Assembly (NCBI GenBank): GCA_021299875.1
Contig: JAJTEW010000002.1
Span: 361,449 to 425,448 of the forward strand
From: Comamonadaceae bacterium
GTDB lineage: Bacteria > Pseudomonadota > Gammaproteobacteria > Burkholderiales > Burkholderiaceae_C
DNA length: 64,000 bases
Direction of reading: 5' to 3'
Shown: positions 16,811 to 44,638 of the stretch, piece after piece
Position numbering within the stretch: position 1 is the first letter of the stretch
Layout: each line of letters begins with the position of its first letter
Made by a program: the position numbers and the translations under genes
Notes under the pieces: model-generated
What the model was told of the DNA's origin: nothing
The model's database searches: none
What the model saw: the letters and a program-made list of their open reading frames with translations, nothing else

Positions 16811-16818
16811 TCGTCCAG

Positions 16819-18775: not shown

Positions 18776-18782
18776 GGTCCGA

Positions 18783-20839: not shown

Positions 20840-20863
20840 TCATTTTTTCAAAGTGAGTTGAAA

Positions 20864-22066
20864 ATGAGCCGACACACCGACGTTCTGTGGGACTCCGCCC
20901 ACGCCTTCATGCCTTACCCCTCCAGCCTTGTGGCCCACGCTGCCACGGGTCCTTTGTCGGGTCTGAGCTTTGCGGCCAAAGACATCTACCACGTCAAGGG
21001 CTACCCCACCAGTGGCGGTCAACCCATGCTCATGGCCTTGTGGGGCGTTCAAGACCGAACGGCCCCGGTGGTACAAAGTTTGCTCGACGCAGGTGCCCGC
21101 TTTGTTGGCAAAACCGTCACCGACGAATTGGCGTTTTCCATGAACGGTCAAAATGCCCATTTCGGCGCGCCGATCAACGGCGCGGTGGCCGAGCGCATCA
21201 GCGGTGGATCCTCTTCGGGTTCGGCGTCTGCCGTGTCCAACCGCTTGTGCGATTTTGCGTTGGGCTCAGACACCGGCGGCTCGGTGCGCGCCCCCGCCAA
21301 CCATTGCGGTCTGGTCGGCATGCGGCCCAGCCATGGCCGGATCAGTTTGCAAGACACCATGGCCTTGTCGCCCAGCTTGGACACTTGTGGCTGGTTTGCC
21401 CGCGATGTGCCCACCTTTGCCCGTGTGGCGGATGTCTTGTTGGGCCAGGATGCGCAGCCCTTGCCCGATCAGATTCGCGTGTTGGCCCCGACTGACATGT
21501 GGGCACTGGCCACGCCAGGGGCCCTCAAAGCCCTCAAGCCAGTGCGGCAAAACGTGGAGCAATGCTTGGGCAAGGCCAAACCGGTTCGCATCATGCAGAG
21601 TGACATGGACACCATGTACTGGCATTTCCGCGCCATTCAGGGACGTGAGGCCTGGGATGTGCATGGTGGTTTTCTTCAGCGTTTCCAGCCGGTGTTGGGC
21701 GCTGCGGTGGCCCAGCGCTTTGACTGGTCTTCCAAAGTCACGGACGAGCAAGTGGCCAAGGCGCGGGCTTTCCGCGAAGGCTGGCGCACGCACATGCAAC
21801 ACATCTTGGGCACTGACGGCGTGCTCTTGATGCCCACCATGCCCGATGTGGCTCCTTGGATCCGTCAGACCGATGCCGAGCTGGAGGACTACCGCAACCG
21901 GGCCACCAGCTTGTTGTGCGTGTCGGGCATGGCGGGCTTGCCGCAAGTGAGCTTGCCGTTGGCCAGCCATCAGGGCGCACCCTTGGGCATTTCTTTGGTG
22001 GGACCAGAAGGCTCAGACCGCAGTCTGGTCAAACTGGCAGAACACATCCACCAAACCTGGTCCTGA
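20864..22066 (+). CDS. Amidase-signature family hydrolase
   Basis: This 400-aa cytoplasmic amidase has the Ser-cisSer-Lys triad visible as Lys in FAAKDIYHV, the Ser-rich GGSSSGSASAV and the nucleophile region SDTGGSVRAPANHCG. The protein is shorter than GatA and lacks an allophanate-hydrolase-type C-terminal domain. Substrate is unknown; context suggests an amide released during ureide or hydantoin breakdown. ATG 20864 is preferred over the TTG at 20858. It follows the second ATPase gene after 24 bp and is probably the last gene of the importer operon. Confidence 0.88.
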   Translation: MSRHTDVLWDSAHAFMPYPSSLVAHAATGPLSGLSFAAKDIYHVKGYPTSGGQPMLMALWGVQDRTAPVVQSLLDAGARFVGKTVTDELAFSMNGQNAHFGAPINGAVAERISGGSSSGSASAVSNRLCDFALGSDTGGSVRAPANHCGLVGMRPSHGRISLQDTMALSPSLDTCGWFARDVPTFARVADVLLGQDAQPLPDQIRVLAPTDMWALATPGALKALKPVRQNVEQCLGKAKPVRIMQSDMDTMYWHFRAIQGREAWDVHGGFLQRFQPVLGAAVAQRFDWSSKVTDEQVAKARAFREGWRTHMQHILGTDGVLLMPTMPDVAPWIRQTDAELEDYRNRATSLLCVSGMAGLPQVSLPLASHQGAPLGISLVGPEGSDRSLVKLAEHIHQTWS

Positions 22067-22096
22067 AACCCGCAGGGTCATCCCATGGGAGCGGCA

Positions 22097-22606
22097 TCAA
22101 AGGGGACTCAGGCGCACGCTCAAAGGCAGTGAATGAATCTCGCAATCTTCGGTCGGGCCTTGGCGCTCCAGCACCAAAAAGGCGCCATTGTCCAAGGCCA
22201 TCAGAGGGTGATGCCAGGTGCCTTTGTGCAGCGTGAAGCCCTGCTGACCCGTGACCTCAAAGCACTTGAGCGTGCGCAGGTCGGGCTGGTCTTGGCCCAA
22301 TGCCACCAGCAAACGACAGCGCGCACCTGTCAATGGCACAAAGGTCTGGCTGCCGCGTCGGTGCCGCTCCAGCATGTGGCAAGGGCCCTCGGGGTTTTGC
22401 GCCAGCGCATGGAATACCGCCAACACCGCCTGTCCATCATCGCCTGCCAAGTCCAGCGCATCGGGCAAATTCAGGCGCCCGCTGGTGCCTTGGTTGATGG
22501 TTTGCTGGGCCGGTTCAAACAAATTCAACACCTCGCCATAGGGCGAAAAAGCATGAGGATTCAGGGGCTGGCAAGTCAGGATGCCAAGGGTTTGTTCAGT
22601 GTTCAT
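22097..22606 (-). CDS. allA: Ureidoglycolate lyase
   Basis: AllA cleaves ureidoglycolate to glyoxylate and urea, the last step of allantoin degradation. The 169-aa protein shows the family pattern FSPYGEVLNL, the INQGTSGR motif, CHMLERHRRGSQTFVPLTG and GTWHHPLMAL, the latter two forming the cupin-type active site. It is on the opposite strand from the importer and diverges from the GntR gene across 28 bp, so both probably share a control region. Confidence 0.9.
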   Translation of the reverse strand: MNTEQTLGILTCQPLNPHAFSPYGEVLNLFEPAQQTINQGTSGRLNLPDALDLAGDDGQAVLAVFHALAQNPEGPCHMLERHRRGSQTFVPLTGARCRLLVALGQDQPDLRTLKCFEVTGQQGFTLHKGTWHHPLMALDNGAFLVLERQGPTEDCEIHSLPLSVRLSPL

Positions 22607-22634
22607 GAAATGACTCGGTTACCAGGGAGTCATC

Positions 22635-23441
22635 ATGACAGATGACCGTCGAATGGGCGTTCCCCTGCCTCGAAAAACCAAGCCTGACAAGCCCATCCAG
22701 ACCCTGACAGGGTTGACGGCCATCCCTGAGGGTTCAAGTGTTCCGCCGGCGCGTGCAGGGGTGCCCAGCACAGGTGCTGATCGGGTGTATGAGGCGATTT
22801 ATCAGGCCGTTTTGGAGCGCCGACTGTCCCCGGGTGAACGCTTGCGCGAGCAAGAGTTGGCTGAACAGTTCAACGTGTCTCGCACCTTGGTGCGCCAAGC
22901 ACTCCAACGTCTGGCGCAAGAGCAGGTCATCGAATTGCTGCACAACCGAGGTGCACGCGTGCCCATCCCCAGTCTGGAAGATGCGGGCAGTGTTTTTGAT
23001 GCCCGCAGGGTGGTGGAGTGCGAAGTGGCCAGGCAACTGGCCGGGCGACTGAGCGCCGAGCAATTGCAGACCTTGCAGCATTTGGCCGCCAGTGAAACCG
23101 AGGCCGATCGCCAGGGGGAGCATGCGTTGGCCATTCGTCTTTCGGGTGAATTTCACCAAGCCATGGCGCACATGCACGGCAACCCGGTTTTGACCCGGTG
23201 GCTCAATGGTTTGCTGCCCACCACGTCTTTGCTCATGTCCCGCTTCAAACGCCAAGGGGGGCAAGTCTGTGTGGCCCATCGCCATGTCGACTTGATAGCG
23301 GCCCTGCAAAAAAATCCTGCGGCGGCTGGCGCTGAAATGCGCAAACACCTCAACGAACTGGAGCAGTCCCTGACGACGCCAACGACCCCTCGCCGACAAT
23401 TGCGCGATGTCTTTCAAGCCTACCGTGACAGCCCTGAATGA
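22635..23441 (+). CDS. GntR-family regulator with FCD domain
   Basis: This 268-aa transcription factor has a winged helix-turn-helix at residues about 50-115 (AIYQAVLERRLSPGERLREQ, ELAEQFNVSRTLVRQAL) followed by an FCD ligand domain with putative metal ligands in GEFHQAMAHMHGN and VAHRHVDLI. Such regulators sense small carboxylates or ureide intermediates. It diverges from allA and its stop overlaps the start of the M20 hydrolase (ATGA). Candidate target sites are the TTGCATAC repeats at 14.8-15.0 kb. Confidence 0.9.
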   Translation: MTDDRRMGVPLPRKTKPDKPIQTLTGLTAIPEGSSVPPARAGVPSTGADRVYEAIYQAVLERRLSPGERLREQELAEQFNVSRTLVRQALQRLAQEQVIELLHNRGARVPIPSLEDAGSVFDARRVVECEVARQLAGRLSAEQLQTLQHLAASETEADRQGEHALAIRLSGEFHQAMAHMHGNPVLTRWLNGLLPTTSLLMSRFKRQGGQVCVAHRHVDLIAALQKNPAAAGAEMRKHLNELEQSLTTPTTPRRQLRDVFQAYRDSPE

Positions 23442-24727
23442 ACACCTCTGGAGATCACCCCATGAAGCTCAGTCCCGACACCTTGCCCACCTTGCGCATC
23501 GACGCCAACCGTTTGTGGCAATCGCTCATGACGCTGGCCCAAATCGGTGGCACCGAAAAAGGGGGCGTCTGTCGCTTGGCCTTGACCGATCTTGACCGCC
23601 AGGGCCGGGACCTGGTCACCTCATGGGCACGCGAAGCAGGCATGACGGTCACGGTCGATCAAATCGGCAACGTCTTCATGCGCAGGGCAGGGCGACAGCC
23701 CGACTTGCCGCCCATCATGACCGGCAGTCACATCGACACCCAGCCCACAGGGGGCAAGTTCGACGGCAACTACGGCGTGCTGGCCGGGCTGGAGGTGGTG
23801 CGCTGCCTGAATGACCACGGCATCGAAACCGAGGCCCCCATCGAGGTGGCCTTTTGGACCAATGAAGAAGGCTCGCGCTTTGTGCCGGTGATGATGGGCT
23901 CGGGCGTTTTTGCGGGGGCTTTTTCGCTGGAGCACGCCTACAAAGCCCAAGACCAAGAGGGTAAAACCGTGCTGGAGGAGTTGCAGCGTATTGGCTATGT
24001 CGGCACCGAGGTGCCGGGCCAGCACCCCATCGGCGCGTACTTTGAGGCCCACATCGAGCAAGGCCCGGTGCTGGAAGACGCTGGTGTGACCATTGGGGTG
24101 GTCAGCGGATCCTTGGGCATCCGTTGGTTTGACTGCACCGTCACAGGCATGGAGGCCCACGCCGGCCCCACCCCCATGTCCCTGCGCCGGGATGCCTTGC
24201 AAGTGGCCACACACTTGATGCAAGCCGTGGTGAGCACGGCCCACCAGCACGCTCCGCACGCCCGGGGCACGGTGGGCATGGTGCATGTGCACCCGAACAG
24301 CCGCAATGTCATTCCCGGACGGGTCAAGTTCAGCATTGACTTGCGCAACAACACTGACGCGGGTGTGGATGCGATGGCCGATGAAATCAGATCGGTCGCC
24401 CAAAGCTTGCAAGCCAGCACGGGCTTGTCGGTTGAATTGACCTTGGTGTCCAGTTTTTCTGCAACAGCCTTTCATGAGGAATGCATTTCGGCCATCTCGG
24501 ATGCCACCGTCAATCTGGGTTACAGCCACATGCCTGTGGTTTCAGGGGCTGGTCATGATGCGATTTATGCGGCGCGATGGGCACCCAGCGGCATGATTTT
24601 TATCCCTTGCAAGGATGGCATCAGTCACAACGAAATTGAATACGCCAAGCCTGAGCACATCGAAGCGGGCTGCAACGTGTTGCTGCATGCGATGTTGGCC
24701 AAGGCCAAAGTGGTTGGATCAACCTGA
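23438..24727 (+). CDS. Zn-dependent N-carbamoyl amino acid / allantoate amidohydrolase (M20)
   Basis: This 429-aa member of the HyuC/AllC branch of M20 peptidases removes a carbamoyl or ureido group from N-carbamoyl amino acids or allantoate. The metal-site motifs are GSHIDTQPTGGKFDGNYG, TNEEGSRF, HIEQGPVLE and the C-terminal GISHNEIEYA. The dimerisation domain follows RGTVGMVHVHPNSRNVIPG. With allA next door, allantoate is the favoured substrate, but a hydantoin-derived carbamoyl amino acid fits the racemase-family gene. The start overlaps the regulator stop; ATG 23462 is an alternative. Confidence 0.9.
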   Translation: MNTSGDHPMKLSPDTLPTLRIDANRLWQSLMTLAQIGGTEKGGVCRLALTDLDRQGRDLVTSWAREAGMTVTVDQIGNVFMRRAGRQPDLPPIMTGSHIDTQPTGGKFDGNYGVLAGLEVVRCLNDHGIETEAPIEVAFWTNEEGSRFVPVMMGSGVFAGAFSLEHAYKAQDQEGKTVLEELQRIGYVGTEVPGQHPIGAYFEAHIEQGPVLEDAGVTIGVVSGSLGIRWFDCTVTGMEAHAGPTPMSLRRDALQVATHLMQAVVSTAHQHAPHARGTVGMVHVHPNSRNVIPGRVKFSIDLRNNTDAGVDAMADEIRSVAQSLQASTGLSVELTLVSSFSATAFHEECISAISDATVNLGYSHMPVVSGAGHDAIYAARWAPSGMIFIPCKDGISHNEIEYAKPEHIEAGCNVLLHAMLAKAKVVGST

Positions 24728-24729: not shown

Positions 24730-25173
24730 TTAGCCCTCAGGCAATTTGATCGGCTGACCCGCTTCCAGCAAATCCATCATCTGCTTCATGACCTGTGGAC
24801 CGGAGGCCGAGTAGGGGTCAAAGTCTGGGTGCTGCAACCTGACCATGGGGTCGTCAACAGACAGATGGATCAGCGCCATGGACCATTGACCAAAGCGCCT
24901 TTCGTTGATTTCTTCGTAATGCAGAATTTCCACGTCTTTGTGGCGCGCATCGGTAGCGATTCTGTGGAACAGCGCGTTGACGCGACTGCGTTGGCCCTCG
25001 ATGACCTGGAAGAAAAAACCTTGACCCTGACACAACACACCGGTGATGCCCTGGGCCTGGTTGTGCGCTTGGGCTTGCGACAGGATGCTGGTGGTCATGG
25101 TGGTGGTCTGTGGGCCGAATGCGCGGCTCACGTAGAGCAAGCGCACGTTGATGTTGTGGCTGGGGACCCTCAT
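24730..25173 (-). CDS. BLUF-domain blue-light sensor
   Basis: This 147-aa protein has an N-terminal BLUF (FAD) domain. Key residues visible are the flavin-side Tyr in RLLYVSRAF, the Asn in QAHNQAQGITGVL, the Gln in FFFQVIEGQ, and the Trp-Met of RFGQWSMAL. About 40 residues follow, with no output domain I recognise. ATG 25173 is chosen because GGAG lies six bases upstream; ATG 25185 is possible and the track's TTG at 25335 runs through crtB. It starts 40 bp after crtB as the last gene of the long minus-strand photosynthesis operon. A role in light control of pigment genes, as for the BLUF part of AppA, is inferred. Confidence 0.92.
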   Translation of the reverse strand: MRVPSHNINVRLLYVSRAFGPQTTTMTTSILSQAQAHNQAQGITGVLCQGQGFFFQVIEGQRSRVNALFHRIATDARHKDVEILHYEEINERRFGQWSMALIHLSVDDPMVRLQHPDFDPYSASGPQVMKQMMDLLEAGQPIKLPEG

Positions 25174-25213: not shown

Positions 25214-26347
25214 TCATGTGTTGCGGCCAAGGCGCTCTGCTTCGCGGCGCTCCAGCAGGTCGAGCATCCAGGCCACGCGCTGGGGCATGGCACGGTTTGG
25301 AAAATAAGCCTTGTTGCCTTTCTGTTGAACAGCATCGCGGCAGCCTTGCACCAAGCCCACGATGGCCTCCAGTGGCTCTGGGGTGTGCGCGCTCACGCGA
25401 ATCCAGTGCACCTGGGTCCATGCACTGGCCAACAGCATGAGCTTGCGTGTGGTGCTGACCACCGTGCGCTTGTTGACCGAATCCAAGCCATCGCGGCGCA
25501 GTTGGTGACCAATTTCGGCGTAGATCATGCTGGCAGCACAAATGGCAGCGCGACAATCTGGCGGCAAGGCCGCGATGCCGGAGTGGGATTGCTTGTACAG
25601 GCGGTCGGCCTCTTCCAAAAGGCGTGCCACTACGCCAGCGATGGCAGGTGTGAAAACGGGCTCTGCCATCCACGCTTCAGGATTGACGCCAGCTTCTACA
25701 AGCCAGCGGCGCGGCAGGTAAAGGCGGCCAATGCTGGCGTCGTGCCCGACGTCGCGAGCGATGTTGGTGAGTTGCATGGCCACTCCCAACTCGCAGGCGC
25801 GGGCCAGCGTGTCCATGCTCTGCGGGCCCATGATCCAGCTCATCATCGCACCCACACTGCCGGCCACCCTTGCGCCATAGGCGTGCAGGTCTTCAATGCT
25901 GTCGTAGGTCCGACCCGCTGCATCCCAGGCAAAACCTTCGATCAGGGCGTCGAGCAAATGGCGTGGCAATTTGTACTGTTGCACCAGCAAGCTCAGTGCA
26001 TGGTCCTCGACATGGTCGTGAGGCGTGCTGTTGTAGATCGCGTCCAAGCGCTCTTTCAACATGACCAAGGGCGTATCGCCTGGTGCGGCTTCGTCCACCA
26101 AATCGTCGGCCACACGGCAAAACGCATAGAGCGCGATGGCAGCGGTGCGCACGCGCGGCGGCAGCAAACGGCTGGCTGCAAAAAATGTTTTGGAACCACC
26201 TTGCATCATGGCCACGCAAGCCTGCAGGTCGTGCGAATCGAAATCGAGCTCATGCAGCACCACGGGCGCCATGGACTGATTGGCGGCGGGGGTGGCCACG
26301 GCGCTCAAGTGGGTTGGGGTGCTGGTTATGGCTTCAGGCCTTGACAT
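25214..26347 (-). CDS. crtB: Phytoene synthase
   Basis: CrtB condenses two geranylgeranyl diphosphates to phytoene. The 377-aa protein contains the two Asp-rich Mg sites: YAFCRVADDLVDEA and LTNIARDVGHDA, plus RLYLPRRWL. A C-terminal 35-residue tail is variable. The ATG at 26347 overlaps the crtI 3' end by 14 bp; the track start at 26506 is a read-through of the crtI region. Confidence 0.95.
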   Translation of the reverse strand: MSRPEAITSTPTHLSAVATPAANQSMAPVVLHELDFDSHDLQACVAMMQGGSKTFFAASRLLPPRVRTAAIALYAFCRVADDLVDEAAPGDTPLVMLKERLDAIYNSTPHDHVEDHALSLLVQQYKLPRHLLDALIEGFAWDAAGRTYDSIEDLHAYGARVAGSVGAMMSWIMGPQSMDTLARACELGVAMQLTNIARDVGHDASIGRLYLPRRWLVEAGVNPEAWMAEPVFTPAIAGVVARLLEEADRLYKQSHSGIAALPPDCRAAICAASMIYAEIGHQLRRDGLDSVNKRTVVSTTRKLMLLASAWTQVHWIRVSAHTPEPLEAIVGLVQGCRDAVQQKGNKAYFPNRAMPQRVAWMLDLLERREAERLGRNT

Positions 26348-27917
26348 GGGGCACCACCGTTTCCAAAGCTTTGGCCGACATGAGAACGCCCGGTACACCT
26401 GCGCCTGGGTGCGTGCTGGCACCCACCACAAACAAGCCCGGCACATCTTCACTGCGGTTGTGCGGGCGGAACCAGGCGCTTTGTAGCAGCAAAGGCTCCA
26501 GGCCAAAGCCCGCGCCTTTGTAGGACCACAAGTTGTCGTGGAAATCTTGTGGTGTGCTGACCTTGCTGGTCACCATGCAGTCGCGCAGACCTGGCAGCAC
26601 ACTGGCCTCCAAGCTCTCGGCAATCGCTGCGCGGTAGGTCTCGGCAAAGGCGGGCCAATCGGTTCCGCTGTCCAAGTGGGGTACGGGCGAGAGCACATAA
26701 AACGTGTCGCAACCCTCTGGGGCCAGTGACGGGTCGGTGGCCGTGGGGCGGTGCAAATACAGGCTGAAGTCGTCGGCCAGTTTGTGTTTTTGAAAGATGT
26801 CTTGCAGCAGGCCTTTGTAGCGTGGACCCAGCACCATCATGTGGTGCGGCACGTCTTTGTATTGCTTGGAGGTGCCGAAGTACCAGACGAACAGGCCCAT
26901 GGAGTATTTGCCGTTGGCAATCTTGCGGTCGGTCCACACGCGGCGGTGCTGCGGGGCCACCAGGTTTTTGTAGGTCCAGGCGGTGTCGCCGTTGCTCACC
27001 ACAATGTCTGCGGGCACGAACTCACCGCTTTGCAGTTCGACACCGCAGGCGCGGCCGTTTTCAATGCGGATTTGCGTCACAGGTGCGTTGCAACGCAGCG
27101 GCACGCCGCGCTCTTGCAGCAGGCTCACCAGGCCTTTGACGATGGCACCCGTGCCGCCCATGGCCGAGTGCACACCCCAGGTGCGTTCCAGCGAGTTGAT
27201 GAGCGCGTAGGCACAGGTCACGGAAAACGGGTTGCCGCCAATCAGCAGCGGGTGAAAGCTCATCACGATGCGCAGCTTGTCGTTGCGGATGTGTTTGGCC
27301 ACCAAGCTGTAGAGGCTGCGCCAAGCGCCCATGCGCAAGAAGTCGGGAATGGCTGCCACAAGATCGCTGACTTTGTCAAAAGCCATATCGCCCATGCCCT
27401 CAAAACCGAGTGTTTTGCAGCGCTCGGCTTCTTCTAAAAATCTTTCGTAGCCGGGCAGGTCTGATGGTTCAAACCGAGCCACTTCAGCGCGCATGTGCTC
27501 GGCGTCGCCGTTGTAGTCAAACCAGGTGCCATCTGCAAAACGCACGCGGTAAAAGGGGTCCATGGCCACCAGCTTCACGTCGTCTGCAAAATTCTTGCCA
27601 CACAGCGCCCAAAGCTCTTCGAGCAAAAAAGGCGCGGTGATGATGGTGGGGCCGGCATCGAAGGTGAAGCCATCCTGGTGATGCACGTAGGCGCGGCCAC
27701 CGGGGGCATCGAGTTTTTCAAAGACCTTGACCTCGTACCCTTTGACGCTCAGGCGGATCGCCGCCGCCAGCCCGCCAAAGCCGCTGCCAATGACGACCGC
27801 CAGCGGGCGCTGACGCAGCGCCGCTGGGGTGCTCAGATCTGGACCTTTAGGCGCAGTTGGAATGCCGAAACCTTCGCTGCGGTAAGCATGGGTGAGCGTG
27901 GGCGTCTGGGTGTTCAT
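26334..27917 (-). CDS. crtI: Phytoene desaturase
   Basis: CrtI is an FAD-dependent membrane-associated enzyme converting phytoene to neurosporene or lycopene. The 527-aa protein has the dinucleotide motif AVVIGSGFGGLAAAIRL preceded by a 45-residue extension, FEKLDAPGGRAYV, and the C-terminal signature GLFVVGASTHPGAGVPGVLMSAK. Start at 27917 (MNTQTPTLTHAY) is 8 bp after the puhE stop. The number of desaturation steps cannot be read from sequence, but crtA/C/D suggest the spheroidene branch (neurosporene). Confidence 0.95.
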   Translation of the reverse strand: MNTQTPTLTHAYRSEGFGIPTAPKGPDLSTPAALRQRPLAVVIGSGFGGLAAAIRLSVKGYEVKVFEKLDAPGGRAYVHHQDGFTFDAGPTIITAPFLLEELWALCGKNFADDVKLVAMDPFYRVRFADGTWFDYNGDAEHMRAEVARFEPSDLPGYERFLEEAERCKTLGFEGMGDMAFDKVSDLVAAIPDFLRMGAWRSLYSLVAKHIRNDKLRIVMSFHPLLIGGNPFSVTCAYALINSLERTWGVHSAMGGTGAIVKGLVSLLQERGVPLRCNAPVTQIRIENGRACGVELQSGEFVPADIVVSNGDTAWTYKNLVAPQHRRVWTDRKIANGKYSMGLFVWYFGTSKQYKDVPHHMMVLGPRYKGLLQDIFQKHKLADDFSLYLHRPTATDPSLAPEGCDTFYVLSPVPHLDSGTDWPAFAETYRAAIAESLEASVLPGLRDCMVTSKVSTPQDFHDNLWSYKGAGFGLEPLLLQSAWFRPHNRSEDVPGLFVVGASTHPGAGVPGVLMSAKALETVVPHVKA

Positions 27918-27925
27918 GGGGGCCT

Positions 27926-28711
27926 TCAAGGGGGTGTGGTCAAAGCCGGTTTGCTGGTTTGGCCCATGGCCCAACCCCACAGCCGCTCCAGTGGCCAAGG
28001 GAAAATCATGATGACGTGTTCAACAATGGCCAACCCGAGCAGCGTGGCCAGCATGACCCAACCGGTGGTGATGGCCACAGCACCTTGTTGTGCGAGCCAG
28101 ACCAGCCAAAACCAAGTGCCCATGGCCACGCTCATGGACAGCACAAACCACAGCGACATGCCGCTGGTGGTGCGGAAATAACTGGCCAAGTAGGCCAAGT
28201 GCTCAGGCAGGTATTGCGCGCCGTTTTGCGGCACGCCAAAAAACAAATTCAGTTTGGCCGACAGGCGCATGCACCACAGCAGTGCAAAGGTGCATATGGC
28301 CACATGGCTGACCTGGCCCTCTTGCATCCACCACAGCACAGCAAAATTCGCCAGCAAGGCCAGCTCGTGGTACAGCATGACTTGCACCGACTGCACAAAA
28401 CGCGGCCAACCCGTGACGCCTGAATCCAGTGGGGTTTTGCGCGGCCCGGTGATCCAGCCCGTGAGGAAGGTCAACTCGTGCCAGCCCCACATGACAATCA
28501 CGCTGCCAAAAGCGAGGTAGGCGTTGAACACGCTGACCTCTTGCATGCTGTGGGCCACGCCCCAAAAACTCAAAGCCAAAAGCACCGTCCAACCGCCCAA
28601 GCTGAAACGGAAGCTGCGCGCAGGCAGCCGGTCGAGCCACAAAATCACACCCGTGCCGAGCCACCAGCACAGGGCCGTGAAAACGCAAGCCCAAACGACT
28701 TCAGTCACCAT
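27926..28711 (-). CDS. puhE: Photosynthetic complex assembly protein PuhE
   Basis: PuhE is an integral membrane protein with about seven helices found only in phototrophic proteobacteria and implicated in reaction-centre/antenna assembly. The 261-aa sequence shows the family segments [38 protein letters not shown], and [20 protein letters not shown]. It overlaps the acsF stop by 7 bp and is followed after 8 bp by crtI. Function is known mainly from Rhodobacter mutants; the biochemical activity is not established. Confidence 0.92.
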
Positions 28712-29787
28712 GCCGGTTCCATGCGCACCTGGGGCGACAAGTCTTGTTCAATCACCGGCATGAAGTACAGGCGGGCAAAAGTGGCCGCTGCCTTGACGGC
28801 GCAAACGCCTTGTTGCAGCTTGCCCACCACACCGCCTCGCGCCTTGGCTTTTTCCATGGCTTGCGAAATGGCAAACAGGCGCTCCAAGCCTCGGCGGAAG
28901 TCGGGGTGGTCGGTATCCAGCGCCAGAGGGAACACTTGCTTGGTGATTTCGGTGGTGATGCGGAACACCTGGTAGTCGTACTCGCTCGAGTCGAGCCCCA
29001 TGGCTTCGTGCAGCATGGGGCGGGTGTGGTCACGCACGTACATGGTGGCGTAAACGGCCAGCAAGAAAAAGCGAATCCACAGCTTGTTGCCGCCGCTGAG
29101 CAGCTTGGGGTTGGCCCGCATGATCAGGGCAAACGATTCACCATGACGGAATTCGTCGTTGCACCACAACTCGAACCAGCGGAAGATGGGATGAAAACGT
29201 TTTTCGGGGTGCTTTTCAAGCTGGCGGAAGATGGTGATGTAGCGCGCGTAGCCAATCTTTTCTGACAGGTAGGTTGCGTAGTAAATGTATTTGGGCTTGA
29301 AAAAAGTGTATTTCTTGGTGCGCTTCAAGTTGCCCAGGTCGATCCCCAGGTTGAAGTCGCGCAGCGACAGGTTGATGAAGCCTGCATGGCGCGATTCGTC
29401 TCGTGCCAGATAGGTCATCAGCTGCTTGATGTCGGGATTGCTGACGTTTTTTCGAATTTCGTTGTAGAGCACGCAACCGGAAAATTCTGACGTGAGTGAG
29501 CTCACCAAAAAGTCCATGAATTCCTGGCGCATCTCGGGCGACAGGCTGGCCATGCCCGAGGCCACTTCGCCGGCAAAGGCTTCGTCGCGCTGGAAGTGAT
29601 CATGGTTGTTGTCGCCTTCGTACTCGGCCATCATCCTGTCCCACTCGGCGCGCACCGGCTCGATGTTGATGCGGTCCATGGCCGCAAAGTCGGTGGTGTA
29701 AAAGCGCGGGCTGATCATGTCGTCGTGCACGGCCTTTTTGTTGGCATCTTCAGCGGTTTCGATGGTGTGGACGGCATTGGCGGTCAT
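28705..29787 (-). CDS. acsF: Oxygen-dependent Mg-protoporphyrin IX monomethyl ester cyclase
   Basis: AcsF forms the isocyclic ring E using O2. The 360-aa di-iron protein has the expected motifs [11 protein letters not shown] and [11 protein letters not shown], plus [16 protein letters not shown] upstream. The anaerobic alternative BchE is not in the window. GGAG lies six bases before the ATG at 29787, preferred over the longer track ORF. It sits between puhC and puhE, the usual proteobacterial place. Confidence 0.96.
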
Positions 29788-29816
29788 GGGCTTCTCCGGT
29801 GCGGGATGTTTCAATT

Positions 29817-30278
29817 TCAGGGGGCTTTGTGGCCAGCCAGTCGCAGGCTGGCAAACACGGCGGCGTTGCTGGGGCCAAACGATTCGAGGTCAATGCGCTG
29901 GCCGGTGCTGGGATCTTGCAGCGTCATGCGGCCATCGGTGCGGCCGATCAATAAAAAGGGGGCTTCTTTGCCCAGGTTTTCACGCTGGCGTTCGCGCGCC
30001 AAGGCCCGAAGGGTGCTGCGTAAAAAGCCTTGTTCACCCGAGAACTGGGCCACCTGCTGGCCCGTGTGGACGTCGAGCACGGCGATGTCACCGCTGCGCA
30101 GGTCAAGAAACTGCAGGTCGCGTTGCCACTGCACGGCGGCGTCGGGCGTGCGCGGGTCCAGGCCTGACCAGCGTGCCAAGCCCACCGCCACCAGCATGGA
30201 CAGCAGCATCACGCCGATCCAGGCCATGGGTCGGTTCAGGCTGTGAACCTGCCAACCATGCTTGGGTAAGGTGTTCAT
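29817..30278 (-). CDS. puhC: Photosynthetic complex assembly protein PuhC
   Basis: PuhC is a 153-aa bitopic protein with one N-terminal membrane helix (residues 19-35, [17 protein letters not shown]) and a periplasmic domain containing [20 protein letters not shown] and [14 protein letters not shown], which match the family. It supports RC-LH1 organisation in Rhodobacter. The start overlaps the puhB stop by 4 bp. Confidence 0.9.
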
Positions 30279-30931
30279 GCCAACATGCCCTGGTTGGGTG
30301 TATGAGCGGGTTCGACTACTGGTGCATCACCTAAGTGCAGGCTTTGGCCTGCACGTTCGGCACGCCACAGGGCCAAGAGTTGCTCGCCCACTTGAACACT
30401 ATGGGGGACACAGCGCAGTGTGGGTTGCGGTTGCGTGACATACCAAGCGCGCTGGTGCGGCCAAAGGTGGGCCCAGCCGATGCGGTCTTCGGGGTGCAAG
30501 GCCAAGGCGATGTCGCCCGTGCCCGCACCCTGGGACTTGAGTGAAGCGCCCGCGATGCGTTTGAAGGGCAGATTGAAGGTCAGCGTGAGCACGATGCCAA
30601 TGCGCATGACCACGCGCTTGTTGGTCAGGGTGTAGAGCGTGCTGCGGGCGGAAAACCACGCAGTGCCCAAAAGCAAGCCCAAAGCCAAGGCATACAGACT
30701 GCCAGCCACCACCAAGGGTTTCCAATCCATCTGGCCCTCTGGAGCCGTCAGGTTGATGGCTTGCACCGCCAACATCAGCGCAAAGTACAGCGCGACTTTG
30801 CGGACATGAAAGGCGTGAATCGCCAAGCGCTTCCAGTCGGGTGCGCCCTGCCAGACCACGCGCTCGCCATGGGGCAAGGCGCTGGGCAGGCCGGGGGCCG
30901 CTTCCCACTCGTGTTCGTGGGTGGCTTTCAT
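30275..30931 (-). CDS. puhB: Reaction-centre assembly protein PuhB
   Basis: This 218-aa membrane protein has a PH-like (bPH) domain. It begins EHEWEAAPGLPSALPHGERVVWQG, followed by two or three membrane helices and YTLTNKRVVMRIGIVLTLTFNLPF, characteristic of PuhB. It assists insertion of the reaction centre in Rhodobacter. It overlaps puhA and puhC by 4 bp on each side, so the three are translationally coupled. Confidence 0.93.
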   Translation of the reverse strand: MKATHEHEWEAAPGLPSALPHGERVVWQGAPDWKRLAIHAFHVRKVALYFALMLAVQAINLTAPEGQMDWKPLVVAGSLYALALGLLLGTAWFSARSTLYTLTNKRVVMRIGIVLTLTFNLPFKRIAGASLKSQGAGTGDIALALHPEDRIGWAHLWPHQRAWYVTQPQPTLRCVPHSVQVGEQLLALWRAERAGQSLHLGDAPVVEPAHTPNQGMLA

Positions 30932-31689
30932 ATGATGGGTTCCTGACGCTCAGGCGTCGCGTACAAGGTGCCTGCACCGTAGTAAGCCGTGATCTTTTCT
31001 TCTTCGAGCAAGGTGATCTGGTCATTCGATTTGGTTTGCGGCACGTTGGCAAACTGGTGCGCCAAAATCGCTTGCACATGCGAACCATCTTTTTTGATGC
31101 GTGCAAAGTTCATGGGCAACAAGACGCGCTTGTCGGAGTTGACCAGCTGCACCTCGGCGTAGCGAAACACCATTTCCATGCGGTCCACCCACAGGTCGAC
31201 CACGGTACCTGCCACGACCTTGTCAGCGCCCCAAACGGGCAAGCCGCGTGGGTCCACGTCTCGCTTGGCCACCGAGTGGTCTGTGGCGATGCGCATGGGC
31301 ACGATTTTGGGGTGTCCGTGTTCCATATCGGGCACGTCGGCGCGCATGGCCCAGGCACCCGGGCCTACGCCCGCTAGCAGCGGGTCACCTACAGGCTCAA
31401 GGGGGGCACCGTTCCAGCCGTGCATGGGCTTGGCGCTGTACTCGCCATCTGGCCGGTTCAGGTCGGGTGACAGGTAGGTGTGGCCATCTTCGGTTTTGTA
31501 GGTCACCGGTTCTGGGACAGGCGGCCAGCCTTCGATCTTGGGGCCGTTTTCACGGCCTGAATCCATCGGGTAGCCCTCGCGGTGGCTTTCGCGCACGAGG
31601 TAGTAAATCAGACCGGCGAAAAATGCCCAGAACATGTACAAGACGATTTGGGCCACATCGATGTACTGTGTGATAGCGCCTGTTTCCAT
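30928..31689 (-). CDS. puhA: Photosynthetic reaction centre H subunit
   Basis: The H subunit caps the cytoplasmic face of the reaction centre and tunes proton delivery to QB. The 253-aa protein has one N-terminal helix (IVLYMFWAFFAGLIYYLV) and a cytoplasmic beta domain with DPRGLPVWGADKVVAG and VQLVNSDKRVLLPMNFARI. AAGGAG lies upstream of the ATG. The stop overlaps puhB. Confidence 0.97.
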   Translation of the reverse strand: METGAITQYIDVAQIVLYMFWAFFAGLIYYLVRESHREGYPMDSGRENGPKIEGWPPVPEPVTYKTEDGHTYLSPDLNRPDGEYSAKPMHGWNGAPLEPVGDPLLAGVGPGAWAMRADVPDMEHGHPKIVPMRIATDHSVAKRDVDPRGLPVWGADKVVAGTVVDLWVDRMEMVFRYAEVQLVNSDKRVLLPMNFARIKKDGSHVQAILAHQFANVPQTKSNDQITLLEEEKITAYYGAGTLYATPERQEPII

Positions 31690-31717
31690 GGCTGTTCTCC
31701 TTCAAAAAATCAATGCA

Positions 31718-33175
31718 TCAACCCGGCAGTTGCGCCAGGCCAAAGGGTTGGGGGGTGCCGGTTGTTGGGACCTCTGCCCGCGCGGCCAAACGGCTCGCAC
31801 GCAACATCGGGCCCAAGGCCACCAGCACGACAAACAACAAGTACATTTCCAGGTGGTAGACGAAGCTGTAAGCGGTGATGGGGGTGACCAGCACCTCGCC
31901 CAAAGCCCCCGACATGGCCAGCACCGACACGCCGTCGCGCAAAGCCCCACCCAGCGCCATGGCCGCACCCGCGCTGGTGGCTTGCACAGCGCCCCAAGTG
32001 CCGATGACCAGACCGCCCAGCTTGCCCAACGAACTGCCGTCTTGGGCCATGCCCATGGCGGTGACCAGCATGCCGACCGAAAACAAACCGCCGCTGAAAC
32101 CGATCAGGCCCACGCCGATGCGGAACATCCAGGCGGCTTCGAGTGGGCCTGAAAAAATCACCATCGCAAATGCGGGCAAGCCCAGCAGCACACCCAGACT
32201 GGCCAAGCGGCAGGCGTGCATGCCACCCGACAGCCAGCGGGCTGACAACAGGAAAGCCAGCAAAGCGCCACCGGCACTCAAAGCCGTGAGGGCGCTGGTG
32301 GCGCCCACGTCGAGCTTCAGGATCTCGGCGGCATAGGGCTCGAGCACGATGTCTTGCATGTTGAAGGCGAAGGTGCCCAAGGCCAGGGTCCACAAAAAGC
32401 GCCGCATCTGCGGTTGGGCCATGAGGTCACGCCAGCTGCTGGCAAAGCCCCCGGCTTCGCGGCGACCGCGCTTGGCACCCCGAGCCTCTTGTTTCCACAG
32501 CGAGGCCAGATTCATCACCGCCACCATCACGGCACAGCCTTGCACCAGCTGAATGAGTTTTTGCGGGCTGAAGTCGGCGAGCAACCACCCAAACACCGCG
32601 CTGCTGGCGATCATGCCCACCAGCAGCATGCTGTAGAGCAAGGCCACCACGCGGGGGCGCTTGTCGTCGTTGGCCAAATCATGCGCCAGCGCCATGCCAG
32701 CGGTTTGTGTGACCTGAATGCCGGTGCCCACCAACACAAAAGCCAGGCAGGCGCCCAGTTGGCCCAGCCACAGGTTGGCGGCCTCGGGCTCTGACAACAG
32801 CAGCAAGGCAAAGGGCATGATGGACAGGCCGCCAAACAGCAGCAAGGTGCCGGTCCACAAATAGGGAATGCGGCGCAGGCCCAGCGCCGAGGGGTGCGTG
32901 TCGCTGCGGTAACCGATCAGGGTGCGCAACGGTGCGAACACCATGGGGATGGCGACTGCCAAAGCCACCCACCAAGCGGGCACTTGCAGCTCCACGATCA
33001 TGACCCGGTTGAGCGTACCCACCAGCAGCGCCGTCACCATGCCGATCACCACCTGGAACAGCGACAGGCGCAAGAGGCGCGCCATCGGCAGCTCAGGCGA
33101 GGCCGCATCGGCAAACGGCATGAAGCGTGTGCCGTAGGCCGTGAACCAGCGGGGCATGGGGACACGCAGTTTCAT
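31718..33175 (-). CDS. lhaA: LhaA, PucC-family LH1 assembly protein
   Basis: This 485-aa MFS-type membrane protein, paralogous to PucC, shares FMPFADAASPELPMARLLRLSLFQ, GTLNRVMIVEL, GYRSDTHPSALGLRR and DIVLEPYAAEIL. Position between bchM and puhA is the conserved site of lhaA, needed for LH1 assembly in Rhodobacter. ATG 33175 overlaps the bchM stop as ATGA; the longer track start at 33193 would lie inside bchM. Confidence 0.93.
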   Translation of the reverse strand: MKLRVPMPRWFTAYGTRFMPFADAASPELPMARLLRLSLFQVVIGMVTALLVGTLNRVMIVELQVPAWWVALAVAIPMVFAPLRTLIGYRSDTHPSALGLRRIPYLWTGTLLLFGGLSIMPFALLLLSEPEAANLWLGQLGACLAFVLVGTGIQVTQTAGMALAHDLANDDKRPRVVALLYSMLLVGMIASSAVFGWLLADFSPQKLIQLVQGCAVMVAVMNLASLWKQEARGAKRGRREAGGFASSWRDLMAQPQMRRFLWTLALGTFAFNMQDIVLEPYAAEILKLDVGATSALTALSAGGALLAFLLSARWLSGGMHACRLASLGVLLGLPAFAMVIFSGPLEAAWMFRIGVGLIGFSGGLFSVGMLVTAMGMAQDGSSLGKLGGLVIGTWGAVQATSAGAAMALGGALRDGVSVLAMSGALGEVLVTPITAYSFVYHLEMYLLFVVLVALGPMLRASRLAARAEVPTTGTPQPFGLAQLPG

Positions 33176-33882
33176 GAGCGGGTCCACTCCCAAGCTTGAG
33201 AGGTGTAGAAACCGCTGGCCACGCGCTGCATGCGTGCGCCTTGCCAGCCCTGCAAATCCAGGTGGTTTTGCATGCGTTGCAGCAAGTCGGCATGTGCCAC
33301 GGGCGAGAGAGAAGGCGAGCGGTCGCTGCGCGGAAACAGTCGGCCCGCGCTGTGCATCAGGGCCAAGAGCGGTGTGCGCGGCGCAAACGTGAAGGCCATG
33401 GAGCCGCGTGTGCGCTGGGCCAAACCGGCCAAAGCTTCGGCGATTTGGTCGCTGTCGTAGTGGATGAGCGAGTCCATGCAGACCACATGGTCAAAGTGGC
33501 CCAAGTCGGGGCTGAGCATGTCGCCGGACATGAATTCCACCGAGCCGGGCAGGGTGGGGTGTTCAGCAGCCATGCGTTCGGCAGCCAACTTGACCAAGGT
33601 GGGCGAGAGGTCGATGGCCACAACGTGGGCACCGCGCAGGGCCGCTTGCAAGGCCAGCGCGCCGGTGCCACAACCGGCATCCAACACGCGCAGACCCCGC
33701 AGGTCTTGCGGCAGCCACGACAGCAGGGTCTCACGCATGGTGTCGCGCCCGGCGCGCACGGTGGCGCGGATGCGGCCCACCGGCTCGTTCGAGGTCAGGC
33801 GTGCCCAGGCATCGGCCGCTGTGCGGTCGAAGTAGTGCTCGATCTGGCTGCGGCGTTGTTCGTAAGCGGTGGTGCTGTTCAT
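33172..33882 (-). CDS. bchM: Mg-protoporphyrin O-methyltransferase
   Basis: BchM methylates the ring C propionate of Mg-protoporphyrin IX with S-adenosylmethionine. The 236-aa class I methyltransferase has the SAM motif VLDAGCGTGALALQAA near residue 67 and the family segments YFDRTAADAWARL and GDMLSPDLGHFDHVVCMDSLIHY. It lies 21 bp downstream of bchL and overlaps lhaA by 4 bp. Confidence 0.95.
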   Translation of the reverse strand: MNSTTAYEQRRSQIEHYFDRTAADAWARLTSNEPVGRIRATVRAGRDTMRETLLSWLPQDLRGLRVLDAGCGTGALALQAALRGAHVVAIDLSPTLVKLAAERMAAEHPTLPGSVEFMSGDMLSPDLGHFDHVVCMDSLIHYDSDQIAEALAGLAQRTRGSMAFTFAPRTPLLALMHSAGRLFPRSDRSPSLSPVAHADLLQRMQNHLDLQGWQGARMQRVASGFYTSQAWEWTRS

Positions 33883-33903
33883 GGTGTGCTTTCTGGTGGG
33901 TGA

Positions 33904-38616
<4,713 letters not shown>

Positions 38617-38642
<26 letters not shown>

Positions 38643-40260
38643 CGTAGAGCGTCTCCACGGTGATGGTTGCCACGCCCAGGTCTTGGGCAAATCGTTCGGT
38701 GTTGCGGCGCGCTTTGCCCCGCACAAAAAACGGGATCTTGCCCAACTCCTTTTCGGCTTCGGGGCTCCAGGTGGCCTGGTTCGAAGCGGCTTGGGCGGGG
38801 GCGGCGACCTTGTGAACGATGTCGGTGGTCAGCGTGTCGGTGCGAGCGGCTACAGCCACAGGCATGGGCGTCGTGGTGGCAACGGGTGAAGTCACGGGTG
38901 CAGTGACCACCGGAGCCAGGTTTTCAGCCGCTGGACGGGTGCTGCCCAAATGCGAGGGCGCCGCCCCGGCGTGGAACTCGAAGTCTTCGCGGAACATGCC
39001 AATCAGGTGTTCTTCCAGGCCCATCATCAGCGGGTGCACCCAGGTGTCGAACAGCACGTTGGCGCCTTCAAAACCCATTTGCGGCGCGTAGCGGGCCGGG
39101 AAGTCTTGCACATGAACCGGAGCAGAAATCACCGCGCAGGGGATGCCTTGGCGCTTGGCGATGTGGCGCTCCATTTGTGTGCCCAAGATCAGCTCGGGCT
39201 GCAGCGCGTTGATTTGGGTTTCGACTTCCAGATAGTCGTCGGTGATCAGGGCCTCGACGCCGTAGCGTTTGCCACAATCGCGCACTTCGCGGGCAAATTC
39301 TCGGCTGTAGCTGCCCAGGCCCACCACCTCAAAACCCATCTCTTGGCTGGCAATGCGGGCAGCAGCCACCACGTGGGTGGCGTCACCAAACAGGTAAACG
39401 CGTTTGCCCGTGAGGTAGGTCGAGTCGACCGATTGGGCATACCAGTGGGCGTGGGCATGCTCGGGGTCGTTGGCGGGTGAGGGCAGGCCGGTCAGGGCGC
39501 AGACTTCGGCGATGAAGTCGCGCGTGGCGTGGCTACCGATTGGCACGGTCTTGGTGTAGGGCTGGTCGAACTGGCGCTGCAGCCACTGCGCAGCGGCCAG
39601 ACCAATTTCGGGGTAAAGCACCACGTTGAAGTCGGCTTCGGCCAGCTTGTGGATGTCGGCCACGCTGGCGCTCAAAGGCGCGACCACGGCCACGTCCACA
39701 CCGAGTTGGTTCAGCAGCTGGGTGATTTCCTTGACGTCGTCTCGGTGGCGAAAGCCCAAGGCGCTGGGGCCGAGGATGTTGCAAGTGGGGCGTGCCTTGG
39801 CGGCCTTGTCAGCGGCGGGCTTGTGCACCAGGTGACGGCACAGTTGGTAAAAGGTTTCGCTCGCGCCCCAGTTTTCCTTGCGCTGGTACGAAGGCAACTC
39901 CAAAGCCACCACGGGGATGGTCAGTTGCAGGGCTTGGGCCAAGCCGCCCGGGTCGTCCTGGATCAACTCGGCGGTACAGGACGAGCCCACCAACATGGCC
40001 GCAGGATTGAAGCGCGCCATGGCTTGACGGGCCGCGTCTTTGAAGAGTTCGGCCGTGTCGCCGCCCAAATCACGTGCCTGAAAGGTGGTGTAGGTGACGG
40101 GGGGGCGGCGCGGCAAGCGCTCGATCATGGTGAACAGCAGGTCGGCGTAGGTGTCGCCTTGCGGTGCGTGCAGCACGTAATGCACGTCCGTCATGGCGGT
40201 GGCCACGCGCATCGCGCCCACATGGGGCGGTCCTTCGTAAGTCCAGAGCGTCAGTTGCAT
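38617..40260 (-). CDS. bchB: Light-independent protochlorophyllide reductase subunit B
   Basis: BchB forms the catalytic component of dark protochlorophyllide reductase with BchN. The 547-aa protein starts [20 protein letters not shown] and has [31 protein letters not shown] and [20 protein letters not shown]. Before the conserved C-terminal domain ([17 protein letters not shown]) there is a linker of about 80 residues rich in Pro, Ala, Thr and Val, which is probably disordered. It lies 16 bp after bchN. Confidence 0.96.
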
Positions 40261-40276
40261 GGGGTGTTCCTGCGCT

Positions 40277-42072
<1,796 letters not shown>

Positions 42073-42105
42073 GGAGGACCTGTTTGGGTGTTGGGGCTTG
42101 GAGTG

Positions 42106-42134
42106 AATGTAAGTCTGGACATACAGTGTGTCAA
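42106..42134 (-). promoter_or_regulatory. Sigma-70-type promoter of the bchF operon
   Basis: On the minus strand, TTGACA (plus 42129-42134) is followed after exactly 17 bases by TACATT (plus 42106-42111), 34 bp before the bchF ATG. Both elements overlap the two PpsR-type boxes, so repressor binding would block RNA polymerase. Confidence 0.6.
42108..42125. promoter_or_regulatory. PpsR/CrtJ box 1 (bchF-ppaA intergenic)
   Basis: TGTAAGTCTGGACATACA fits the TGT-N12-ACA consensus exactly. It covers the -10 element of the bchF promoter and is three bases from box 2, the tandem spacing used for cooperative PpsR/CrtJ binding. Confidence 0.75.
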
Positions 42135-42146
42135 CATAAATTGACA
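42129..42146. promoter_or_regulatory. PpsR/CrtJ box 2 (bchF-ppaA intergenic)
   Basis: TGTCAACATAAATTGACA is a TGT-N12-ACA box and an inverted repeat (TGTCAA/TTGACA). It contains the -35 hexamer of the bchF promoter and, on the plus strand, a TTGACA that could serve ppaA. Confidence 0.8.
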
Positions 42147-42316
42147 ATATTTTAAGTAATCAGGGTTTACACTAGATGCGGTGCGGTGAATTCAACCCAC
42201 ACTCAAGCCTGTGTTGAATGGGGTCATTTGGATGGCTTCATTTGCTTCCTTGCGACGATCACTCCGACGCCCCGGAGACTGCCGCTGGTGTATCCCTTTG
42301 ATGATCGGTGCATGTC

Positions 42317-43120
42317 ATGGCCAAATTCAATCTCGAAAACGCCCAAGCCCGTCCGGTGGTCCAGGGTGTGACCCCCTTGCCCGTAGCCTTGCGGCAAGGC
42401 ACGCCCGTCGGACCGCGTTTGGTGGGTGGTACCTCATTTGCGGGCAAGTCGGCCATTGACTTGGGGCAAATTCAAATTTTGGCCCAAGCCTGTTTGCAGG
42501 GTTTGGATGCGGCAAGGCAGGTGGTGTTTGGTTGGCAGCGCCAGGGCCAGTCGTTGGAAGACATCTATCTGCAAGGCATCACGCCCTGTGCCCGCCTCTT
42601 GGGGGACTGGTGGTGTTCGGACCGCTTGGATTTCGCCATGACCACCATTGCGTCCTCTCATCTCCAGCAGCTGCTGCATGATTTCAGTGCAGAGTTCCTT
42701 CAAGAAGCGCCTCAGCAGCGCAACGGCCTGAGTTTGCTTTTGTTGACCGAGCCAGCTGCTCAGCACAGCATGGGCTTGTTCATGCTCAGTGAGTTCTTCA
42801 AACGCGCCGGCTGGGTGGTCACCGTGGCCGTGCCCCAAGACGTGGTGGATTTCAAAAAAATGTTTGTGTCCGATTGGTTCGATGCGGTGGGCATATCGGT
42901 CAGCACCGACCGGCATTTGGGCACCCTGCAGACCTTGCTCCCACAGCTGCGGGAGGCCTCCGACAACCTGAACCTGCAAGTTTTTGTGGGTGGCCCCATG
43001 GCGTTCCATTCACCTGAATTGCTCAAAGGGCTGCACGCCCAACTGATCGCTGAAGATGCACCCGAGACGGTGGCTTGCATCACAAAGGGGATGCTTTTGA
43101 CGTCTGCAGGGGGTGCATAA
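42317..43120 (+). CDS. ppaA: PpaA/AerR-type regulator (SCHIC, cobalamin-binding-like fold)
   Basis: This 267-aa regulator belongs to the PpaA/AerR group, which modulates PpsR/CrtJ. It resembles the C-terminal part of AppA. An N-terminal helical region (LGQIQILAQACLQGLD, QSLEDIYLQGITPCARLLGDWW) precedes a B12-binding-like Rossmann domain (GLSLLLLTEP, QHSMGLFMLSEFFKRAGW, WFDAVGISVSTDRH, LQVFVGGPMA). ATG 42317 is preferred over the GTG at 42308. It lies just before ppsR, the standard arrangement. No BLUF domain is attached; a separate BLUF gene occurs at 25 kb. Confidence 0.88.
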   Translation: MAKFNLENAQARPVVQGVTPLPVALRQGTPVGPRLVGGTSFAGKSAIDLGQIQILAQACLQGLDAARQVVFGWQRQGQSLEDIYLQGITPCARLLGDWWCSDRLDFAMTTIASSHLQQLLHDFSAEFLQEAPQQRNGLSLLLLTEPAAQHSMGLFMLSEFFKRAGWVVTVAVPQDVVDFKKMFVSDWFDAVGISVSTDRHLGTLQTLLPQLREASDNLNLQVFVGGPMAFHSPELLKGLHAQLIAEDAPETVACITKGMLLTSAGGA

Positions 43121-43251
43121 ATTGGCCAATCGATTCTTTTTCTTACAATTAAAACCCATCTCCTCGGGATTGCGTGGGCTGCATCAGCCTATACTCGGTG
43201 GACAAATAAAAGTGTCAACTTCCTGATGCTCCAACCCGTTTGGTTTACAAC

Positions 43252-44638
43252 ATGAAGCTTCCCTCTTTGGACCCGTCCACCTTTTCCCAATTGCTGGGTG
43301 TGGTGTCTGACGTCACCTTGGTCATGGACCCGCAAGGGGTGATCGAAGACGTTTCAACTGGGCGTGATACCTTGGCTTCTTTGGGTTGCCAGACTTGGAT
43401 CGGTCGTCGCTGGATCGAAACGGTCACCAGCGAGAGTCGTGTGAAAGTCCAAGAAATGCTGCTGTCGCAAGGCGTCCCAGATGTGATGCGCTGGCGTCAT
43501 GTCAACCACATGTCTCCCGTCGGCAATGAGGTGGCCCTGCAGTATGTGGTGCTGCCCTTGGCTGGCGGTAAGTTGTTGGCCATGGGGCGTGACTTGGAGA
43601 GCCTGGCCGAATTGCAGCGCCGACTGGTTGAGACCCAGCAATCGATGGAGCGCGACTATTTGCGTCTGCGCCACATCGAGGCACGTTACCGCGTGTTGTT
43701 CGACACCTCTACTGAAGCGGTTTTGATGGTGGACGCCAGCAGCCAGCGCGTGCTGGAGGCCAATGTGGGTGCGCAGGCTTTGCTCAAGGATGCGGGCAAA
43801 CGGTTGGTCGGTCGTGACGTGCGTGAATGTTTTGAGGGTGAGAGTCAGGGTGAAGTTCAGTCTTTGCTGCGCATGGCGCTGGCGACTGGCCGGATTGAGA
43901 TGTGCGCGGCCCGCGTGGCGGGATTGCCATCCCTGGACCGTGTCGGCCACCGTGTTCCGCCAGGAGGGTGGGGCGCAGTTTTTGGTGCGTTTGGTCACAC
44001 GTGAGAACACGGCCCTGGCCCACCAAGATCCAGGTTCTTCGGCTGTCTTGAGCGAGGCCATGGAGCGTTTTCCAGATGGCTGGTTGCTGACCGACACCAC
44101 GGGCGTGATCAAAAGTGTGAACGAAGAAGGCATGGCTTTGCTGGGCCTGACCGCGTCCTCTCAGGTGGTGGGTCAAAACCTGGAGCGCTGGTTGCTGAGG
44201 GGTGCGGTGGACTGGGGGGTGCTTAACACCAGTTTGCGTCAGCAGCTGCCCGTGCGCAATTTCGCCACCGAAGTGCGCACCCTGTCGGGCATGACCCTGC
44301 CGGTCGAGGTCTCTGCGGTGTGCCTGGCCCGCCCCGAGCCGATGTTTGCCTTTTTTGTACGCGACATGGACCGTCGCCTGCAAGGTGGCGCCTCGGTGAC
44401 GCAAAGCCAGGCCAACCCCTTTGCCGACTTGACCCAGCTGGTGGGGCGCCGCCCGATCAAGGACATCGTGGGCGAGACGGTGGACACCATCGAGCGCATG
44501 TGCATCGAAGCGGCTTTGGAGTTGACCCACAACAACCGAGCTTCGGCCGCGGAAATGCTGGGTTTGTCGCGCCAAAGTCTCTACGTCAAGTTGCGTCGCT
44601 TTGGCATGGTGGCCGAAGCCGAAACCGACAATCCCTGA
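43252..44638 (+). pseudogene. ppsR: PpsR/CrtJ repressor gene with a +1 frameshift
   Basis: Two overlapping ORFs together encode PpsR, the PAS/HTH repressor of photosynthesis genes. Frame 1 (43252-44004) carries the N-terminal PAS domain, the Q-linker with LQRRLVETQQSMERDYLRL, and PAS1. Frame 2 continues with FRQEGGAQFLVRLVT, the second PAS (FPDGWLLTDTTGVIKSVNEEG) and the Fis-type HTH (NNRASAAEMLGLSRQSLYVK). Removing one C from the CCC at 43931-43933 joins them (GLPS-WTVSATVF) into a normal 461-aa PpsR. As written, the product stops at 250 aa without a DNA-binding domain. It may be a sequencing error, as both halves look intact. Confidence 0.9.

Follow-up and report, generated by a model that had tools for sequence, protein, structure and literature searches.

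A short BLUF gene closes the carotenoid and bacteriochlorophyll operon of a Limnohabitans photosynthesis cluster

Gene order at the locus and the BLUF protein

The window, by which we mean the whole stretch of 64,000 nucleotides analysed here, comes from a bacterium of the freshwater genus Limnohabitans, the genus to which its named close relatives belong. It carries a photosynthesis gene cluster in which a long minus-strand run, bchF-N-B-H-L-M-lhaA-puhA-B-C-acsF-puhE-crtI-crtB-BLUF, has a stand-alone sensor of blue light as its final gene. The features that matter for the argument are the following:

24730..25173, minus strand: BLUF gene for a short, stand-alone sensor of blue light (147 aa), the terminal cistron of the bchF..crtB operon (Pfam, residues, AF2 model)
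25214..26416, minus strand: crtB, phytoene synthase (Pfam SQS_PSY, 233 bits; NCBIfam CrtB; spacing to BLUF)
26334..27998, minus strand: crtI, phytoene desaturase (TIGR02734, 597 bits)
27926..42147, minus strand: puhE, acsF, puhC, puhB, puhA, lhaA, bchM, bchL, bchH, bchB, bchN and bchF (open reading frames; gene order conserved in relatives)
42108..42146, no strand assigned: a pair of adjacent PpsR-type palindromes (TGTN12ACA; 42108 and 42129) preceding bchF and the operon (pattern scan)
42308..43120, plus strand: ppaA/aerR, homolog of cobalamin-type antirepressors, 270 aa (Pfam B12-binding, 32.9 bits; match to AerR 7te2)
43240..44638, plus strand: ppsR, with a frameshift; its N part occupies 43240-44004 and its C part (PAS and HTH) lies in another frame within 43763-44638

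In the stretch from puhE to bchF, bchH is named by Pfam and the other genes from reading of the sequence and known gene order. bchF probably starts near 42072. The palindrome at 42129 matches the strict form TGTcaN8tgACA, and the pattern scan places further strict matches upstream of bchG (44666), upstream of bchI (55168) and, as a fourth, at 56485. The earlier note had described BLUF as a separate 147-aa gene ending the carotenoid and bch operon, without giving its strand, and PpaA as a separate gene next to ppsR. The open reading frame and the Pfam match bear out the first description and put the gene on the minus strand; the second is equally correct, ppaA and ppsR both lying on the plus strand at the far end of the bchF..BLUF run, 17-19 kb from BLUF.

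The BLUF gene starts with the ATG at 25173, preceded at 6 nt by the Shine-Dalgarno sequence GGAG, and the resulting N-terminus, MRVPSH, is common to its orthologs. The protein matches Pfam BLUF (PF04940) with 104.4 bits against a cut-off of 25. Y14, N38, Q56, W97 and M99 are invariant among 26 orthologs and are spaced as in AppA, where the matching photocycle residues are Y21, N45, Q63, W104 and M106. From this set of residues we infer photoactivity; the gene appears photochemically complete and the photoreceptor is apparently a working one. The BLUF complement of the genome amounts to two matches, located in open frames 220 and 194 aa long, and the second BLUF protein is also short. No AppA-type fusion of BLUF with SCHIC is found among the profile matches to BLUF in this genome, and the 147-aa protein consists of the BLUF domain alone.

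Forty base pairs separate the crtB stop from the BLUF start. Among 32 relatives, 13 have the two genes overlapping by 4 bp (ATGA), and the remainder have gaps of 5-51 bp. So tight a coupling might indicate that BLUF acts post-transcriptionally on carotenoid synthesis, for example on the translationally coupled CrtB. We consider such an action very improbable, given that members of the same BLUF subfamily encoded away from crtB adjoin no carotenoid gene and that regulators are common at operon ends; to our knowledge BLUF action on CrtB or carotenoid synthesis is without precedent.

On its other side, BLUF borders an island (12037-24727) that separates it from pucC and carries an Asp/Glu/hydantoin racemase, peptide-type ABC transporter genes, an amidase, a GntR regulator and an M20 hydrolase. 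The final gene of the island is convergent with BLUF, with 2 bp between the stops. The island is present at this junction in L103-L105, L107, L111 and L112 and absent from L108-L110 and L115 (all named contigs of relatives), which marks a variable site.

Distribution, selection and association with phototrophy

Our genus sample comprises 90 genomes, 35 of which carry a cluster-type crtB (identity of 78% or more across most of the gene); a 36th (G029), in which the contig ends inside crtB, was left outside this count. BLUF follows crtB directly and on the same strand in 31 of the 35 and is absent from the other four (G023, G077, G078 and G083). The same order is found in 32 named contigs (L103-L134). 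The linkage survey suggested in the earlier note thus finds the arrangement conserved within the lineage, while the other genera of the family yielded no crtB linkage of this BLUF gene.

In a tree of 124 BLUF rows all crtB-linked proteins of the lineage fall into one clade (support 100/96) that lies within a wider set of BLUF genes encoded elsewhere. Because this single clade sits among unlinked relatives, the gene appears to have been captured once. The tree of cluster genes places the BLUF-less strains inside the BLUF-bearing ones, with G023 separate, at weak support, from the other three, and this nesting suggests that the absences are losses; no significant BLUF remnants are found in the BLUF-less strains. 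The crtB-linked gene is under purifying selection (median pairwise dN/dS 0.13).

Two observations concern the genomes themselves. Between G000 and G065 synonymous divergence is 0.22 in BLUF and 0.6-0.8 in ppaA and ppsR, a contrast that suggests, from sequence divergence, that the cluster is a recombination mosaic. Public MAG records titled 'Akkermansia muciniphila' (L103), 'Rickettsia typhi' (L143) and 'Bordetella parapertussis' (L174) contain betaproteobacterial BLUF, and in L103 the whole cluster is betaproteobacterial too; these records look misnamed.

Is the gene associated with phototrophy beyond its position? Taking as one subfamily the crtB-linked proteins and their unlinked relatives, and pufM as the mark of a phototroph, we find the subfamily represented in 36 of the 43 high-quality genomes of the genus that carry pufM and in 2 of the 13 that lack it (Fisher p 1e-5). 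The clade that is not linked to crtB shows the association by itself (12/19 with pufM, 2/13 without; p 0.01), and at the level of the family crtB is present in 6 of 9 subfamily carriers, compared with 53 of 399 sampled genomes overall (p 3e-4), although all these counts overstate the evidence because the genomes share ancestry and are not phylogenetically independent. Given the linkage in 31 of 35 genomes, the selection on the gene and the tracking of phototrophy by its subfamily, a link between this BLUF and phototrophy is well supported. Conservation, selection and association are in this case direct observations, as are the photoreceptor residues and the membership of the operon. The gene is nevertheless dispensable, since four cluster genomes lack it and the subfamily as a whole is missing from 7 of the 43 high-quality phototrophs. 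A third, housekeeping BLUF is present in nearly all genomes.

BLUF genes at the edges of other clusters were also recorded. In G134, a genome of another genus, crtB is likewise followed, on its own strand, by a BLUF gene, but by an unrelated one (30% identity; L179:2925-3437); an SDR gene adjoins it, as is likewise the case in L175 (Polaromonas). Other examples are L135 (bchD-bchO-BLUF), G170 (~1 kb from bchI), G228 (beside tspO) and L175 (near crtC). A general enrichment of BLUF near clusters in other genera did not emerge: 3 of ~113 genes (G134, G170 and G228) lie within ~1 kb, compared with ~1.3 expected under uniform placement, and proximity outside Limnohabitans is therefore not clearly above chance. 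The neighbours of the unlinked relatives were uninformative, the commonest family besides BLUF (F1) being an expanded tripartite-transport binding protein. A 689-aa frame around the BLUF of G206 was rejected as a fusion, being a read-through open frame. G058 and G020 each carry a further, distantly related BLUF gene (35% identity) within 1-8 kb of the cluster-linked one (L124:7274-7654; G020:C30:8698-9084).

Neutral hitch-hiking, in which BLUF would have landed at the end of the operon without taking any part in photosynthesis, would agree with the loss of BLUF from four genomes that did not lose ppaA, with the island insertions at the variable pucC junction and with the chance-level proximity in other genera. 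Purifying selection, invariant photocycle residues and retention in 31 of 35 genomes make neutral carriage scarcely credible.

PpaA and the relation to AppA

The earlier note had further proposed that BLUF and PpaA together are a two-component equivalent of AppA. AppA of Rhodobacter sphaeroides joins BLUF, a SCHIC domain that binds heme and a Cys-rich tail in one protein. The Limnohabitans BLUF resembles it in photocycle residues and their spacing and in the presumed output, control of photosynthesis genes, whereas in Limnohabitans there is no fusion and PpaA is of the cobalamin type. By overall build the protein resembles the short sensors of the PixD/BlsA type: a single BLUF domain, a short C-terminal helical cap and a length of ~140-150 aa. 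In the AF2 model (pLDDT 76.5) the C-terminal helix spans residues 125-138. The best PDB matches of the model are to PixD (Tll0078; 1x0p/8i98, TM ~0.8); BlsA reaches 0.79 and AppA 0.60-0.70, and by sequence the protein is closest to PixD. PixD (Tll0078/Slr1694) and BlsA, which share its length, domain content and predicted fold, give their output through protein-protein contact; they differ in that their partners are PixE and Fur, and we know of no linkage of either to a photosynthesis cluster.

PpaA has a sole match in the PDB, AerR (7te2, E 4e-16), and keeps the equivalents of His145, W94 and F101. In the heme-binding SCHIC of AppA the His is shifted by two positions and the W94/F101 cap is replaced (PMC9144470). 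The PpaA of the window thus lacks the marks of a heme-type SCHIC, the lower-ligand His, the Trp and the Phe all being retained. As judged from its sequence it has those of AerR/PpaA, namely a stand-alone, predicted cobalamin-binding domain with the lower-ligand His, encoded upstream of ppsR. Since ligand and cap are kept, it is expected to be a cobalamin protein and may itself sense light. It belongs to one family with AerR of R. capsulatus and PpaA of R. sphaeroides, a family that matches the companion gene, not BLUF. All four BLUF-less genomes (4/4) retain ppaA.

A split AppA, in which BLUF would signal to PpaA and the two together would replace the BLUF-SCHIC fusion towards PpsR, could draw on the presence of both genes in one cluster; moreover, the two halves of Rhodobacter AppA are reported to signal when supplied separately. 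AppA itself fuses BLUF with an AerR-like domain (PMC9144470). We nevertheless regard a split AppA as unlikely: PpaA matches only AerR, retains its cobalamin features and would be expected to sense light by itself, its gene persists where BLUF is missing, PpaA is not a conserved neighbour of the unlinked members of the BLUF subfamily, and BLUF is nearer to PixD than to AppA. Thus, of the two-component equivalent, the complete sensor in the operon, its linkage (31/35) and its tracking of phototrophy stand, and action through PpaA is not supported. Taken together, the evidence on PpaA and BLUF does not favour contact between these two over contact between BLUF and PpsR. A more elaborate arrangement, in which two sensors with different chromophores, the flavin-type BLUF protein and the cobalamin-type PpaA, whose genes lie at the two ends of the operon region, would assemble on PpsR in a light-dependent manner and do the work of AppA as two proteins, with feedback through PpsR control of the operon, is quite unlikely.

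Candidate partners of the sensor and the state of ppsR

We tentatively propose, at somewhat less than even confidence, that a working short BLUF protein, captured as last cistron in the ancestor of the Limnohabitans cluster, tunes photosynthesis-gene expression to blue light, with PpsR as the likeliest partner. Because the gene for the sensor is the last gene of a photosynthesis operon, light sensing is probably wired into photosynthesis-gene control. BLUF, co-expressed with the cluster, would bind a transcriptional regulator of the cluster, PpsR being the first candidate, in one light state; binding would relieve repression in the dark, and repression would return in blue light. BLUF would also be part of a feedback loop, since its own operon begins at PpsR-type sites. 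What we infer is that cluster expression is the output, which partner is bound and in which direction light acts; by analogy, dark antirepression is most likely, modelled on LdaP-PpsR of Dinoroseobacter and BlsA-Fur of Acinetobacter. LdaP of Dinoroseobacter shibae is a proven stand-alone blue-light sensor and an antirepressor of PpsR in the dark, beside a B12-dependent PpaA (PMC10890935), and BlsA antagonises Fur (PMC5955987). LdaP shares stand-alone blue-light sensing with the Limnohabitans protein, but its domain is LOV, not BLUF, and its locus (Dshi_1135) is outside its photosynthesis cluster (Dshi_3501-3547).

A target outside the cluster, such as a MerR-type regulator or a motility or biofilm protein, is possible but on balance doubtful. 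The protein would then be a general blue-light sensor whose place in the operon secures only its expression during phototrophy. The targets of short BLUF proteins vary, including PixE and Fur, and BluF acts on the MerR protein BluR; close relatives are encoded at unrelated loci, and the BLUF relative of Limnohabitans sp. Rim11 has a MerR gene ~0.7 kb downstream. An outside target alone leaves unexplained, however, why the unlinked subfamily tracks phototrophy and why an unrelated BLUF occupies the crtB slot of G134.

That a single-domain BLUF modulates PpsR in a cluster without AppA is an idea already put forward by Spring et al. 2009 (PMC2654016). As described there, Congregibacter litoralis has a single-domain BLUF gene (KT71_19323) close to ppsR, AppA is absent, blue light lowers pigment, and the BLUF protein is proposed to modulate PpsR in a manner left unspecified. 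In the NOR5/OM60 clusters the BLUF gene is upstream (Zheng et al. 2011, PMC3176799). NOR5/OM60 and Limnohabitans have in common a single-domain BLUF in or next to the cluster and no AppA, KT71_19323 being compared by its description. The NOR5/OM60 gene belongs to Gammaproteobacteria and lies upstream of the cluster near acsF, whereas that of Limnohabitans follows crtB; for the NOR5/OM60 clade, the passages of the published description used here mention a crtJ gene and not ppaA. New here is a well-conserved BLUF in betaproteobacteria that is coupled to crtB. Within the literature searched, no paper was found to name both Limnohabitans and BLUF in its photosynthesis cluster. As to betaproteobacterial light inputs to PpsR, earlier work left the antirepressor unstudied (PMC4452267). 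Limnohabitans is abundant in fresh water and includes many aerobic phototrophs, and its conserved BLUF gene is a specific candidate through which blue light could control photosynthesis in betaproteobacteria.

A question remains, is PpsR intact in this strain? The earlier note was right that ppsR stands beside ppaA, and overlooked that it is frameshifted. The frame breaks near 43930, where the gene lacks 2 nt that five relatives have, at a site outside any homopolymer. Neither of its halves, with 183 and 221 bits, reaches the cut-off of 275, which an intact relative exceeds with 414, and an intact PAS-Q-PAS-PAS-HTH frame is absent; in 29 relatives the gene is unbroken over the stretch compared. 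No second ppsR copy is found by search of the genome. Given that the sole ppsR is frameshifted, the proposed target of BLUF may not work, and a PpsR-dependent light response may be missing, in this strain. Both halves are under strong purifying selection (dN/dS 0.02-0.08), which leads us to reject relaxed selection after the break and to regard the break as either very recent or an assembly error. The four natural BLUF-less strains and this one apparently ppsR-broken strain offer ready comparisons.

Outside its cluster, on contig C19, the genome encodes a second stand-alone B12-binding PpaA-like protein of 311 aa (L212:2730-3662), and several relatives (e.g. G068) carry a gene similar to it ~7 kb from ppaA.
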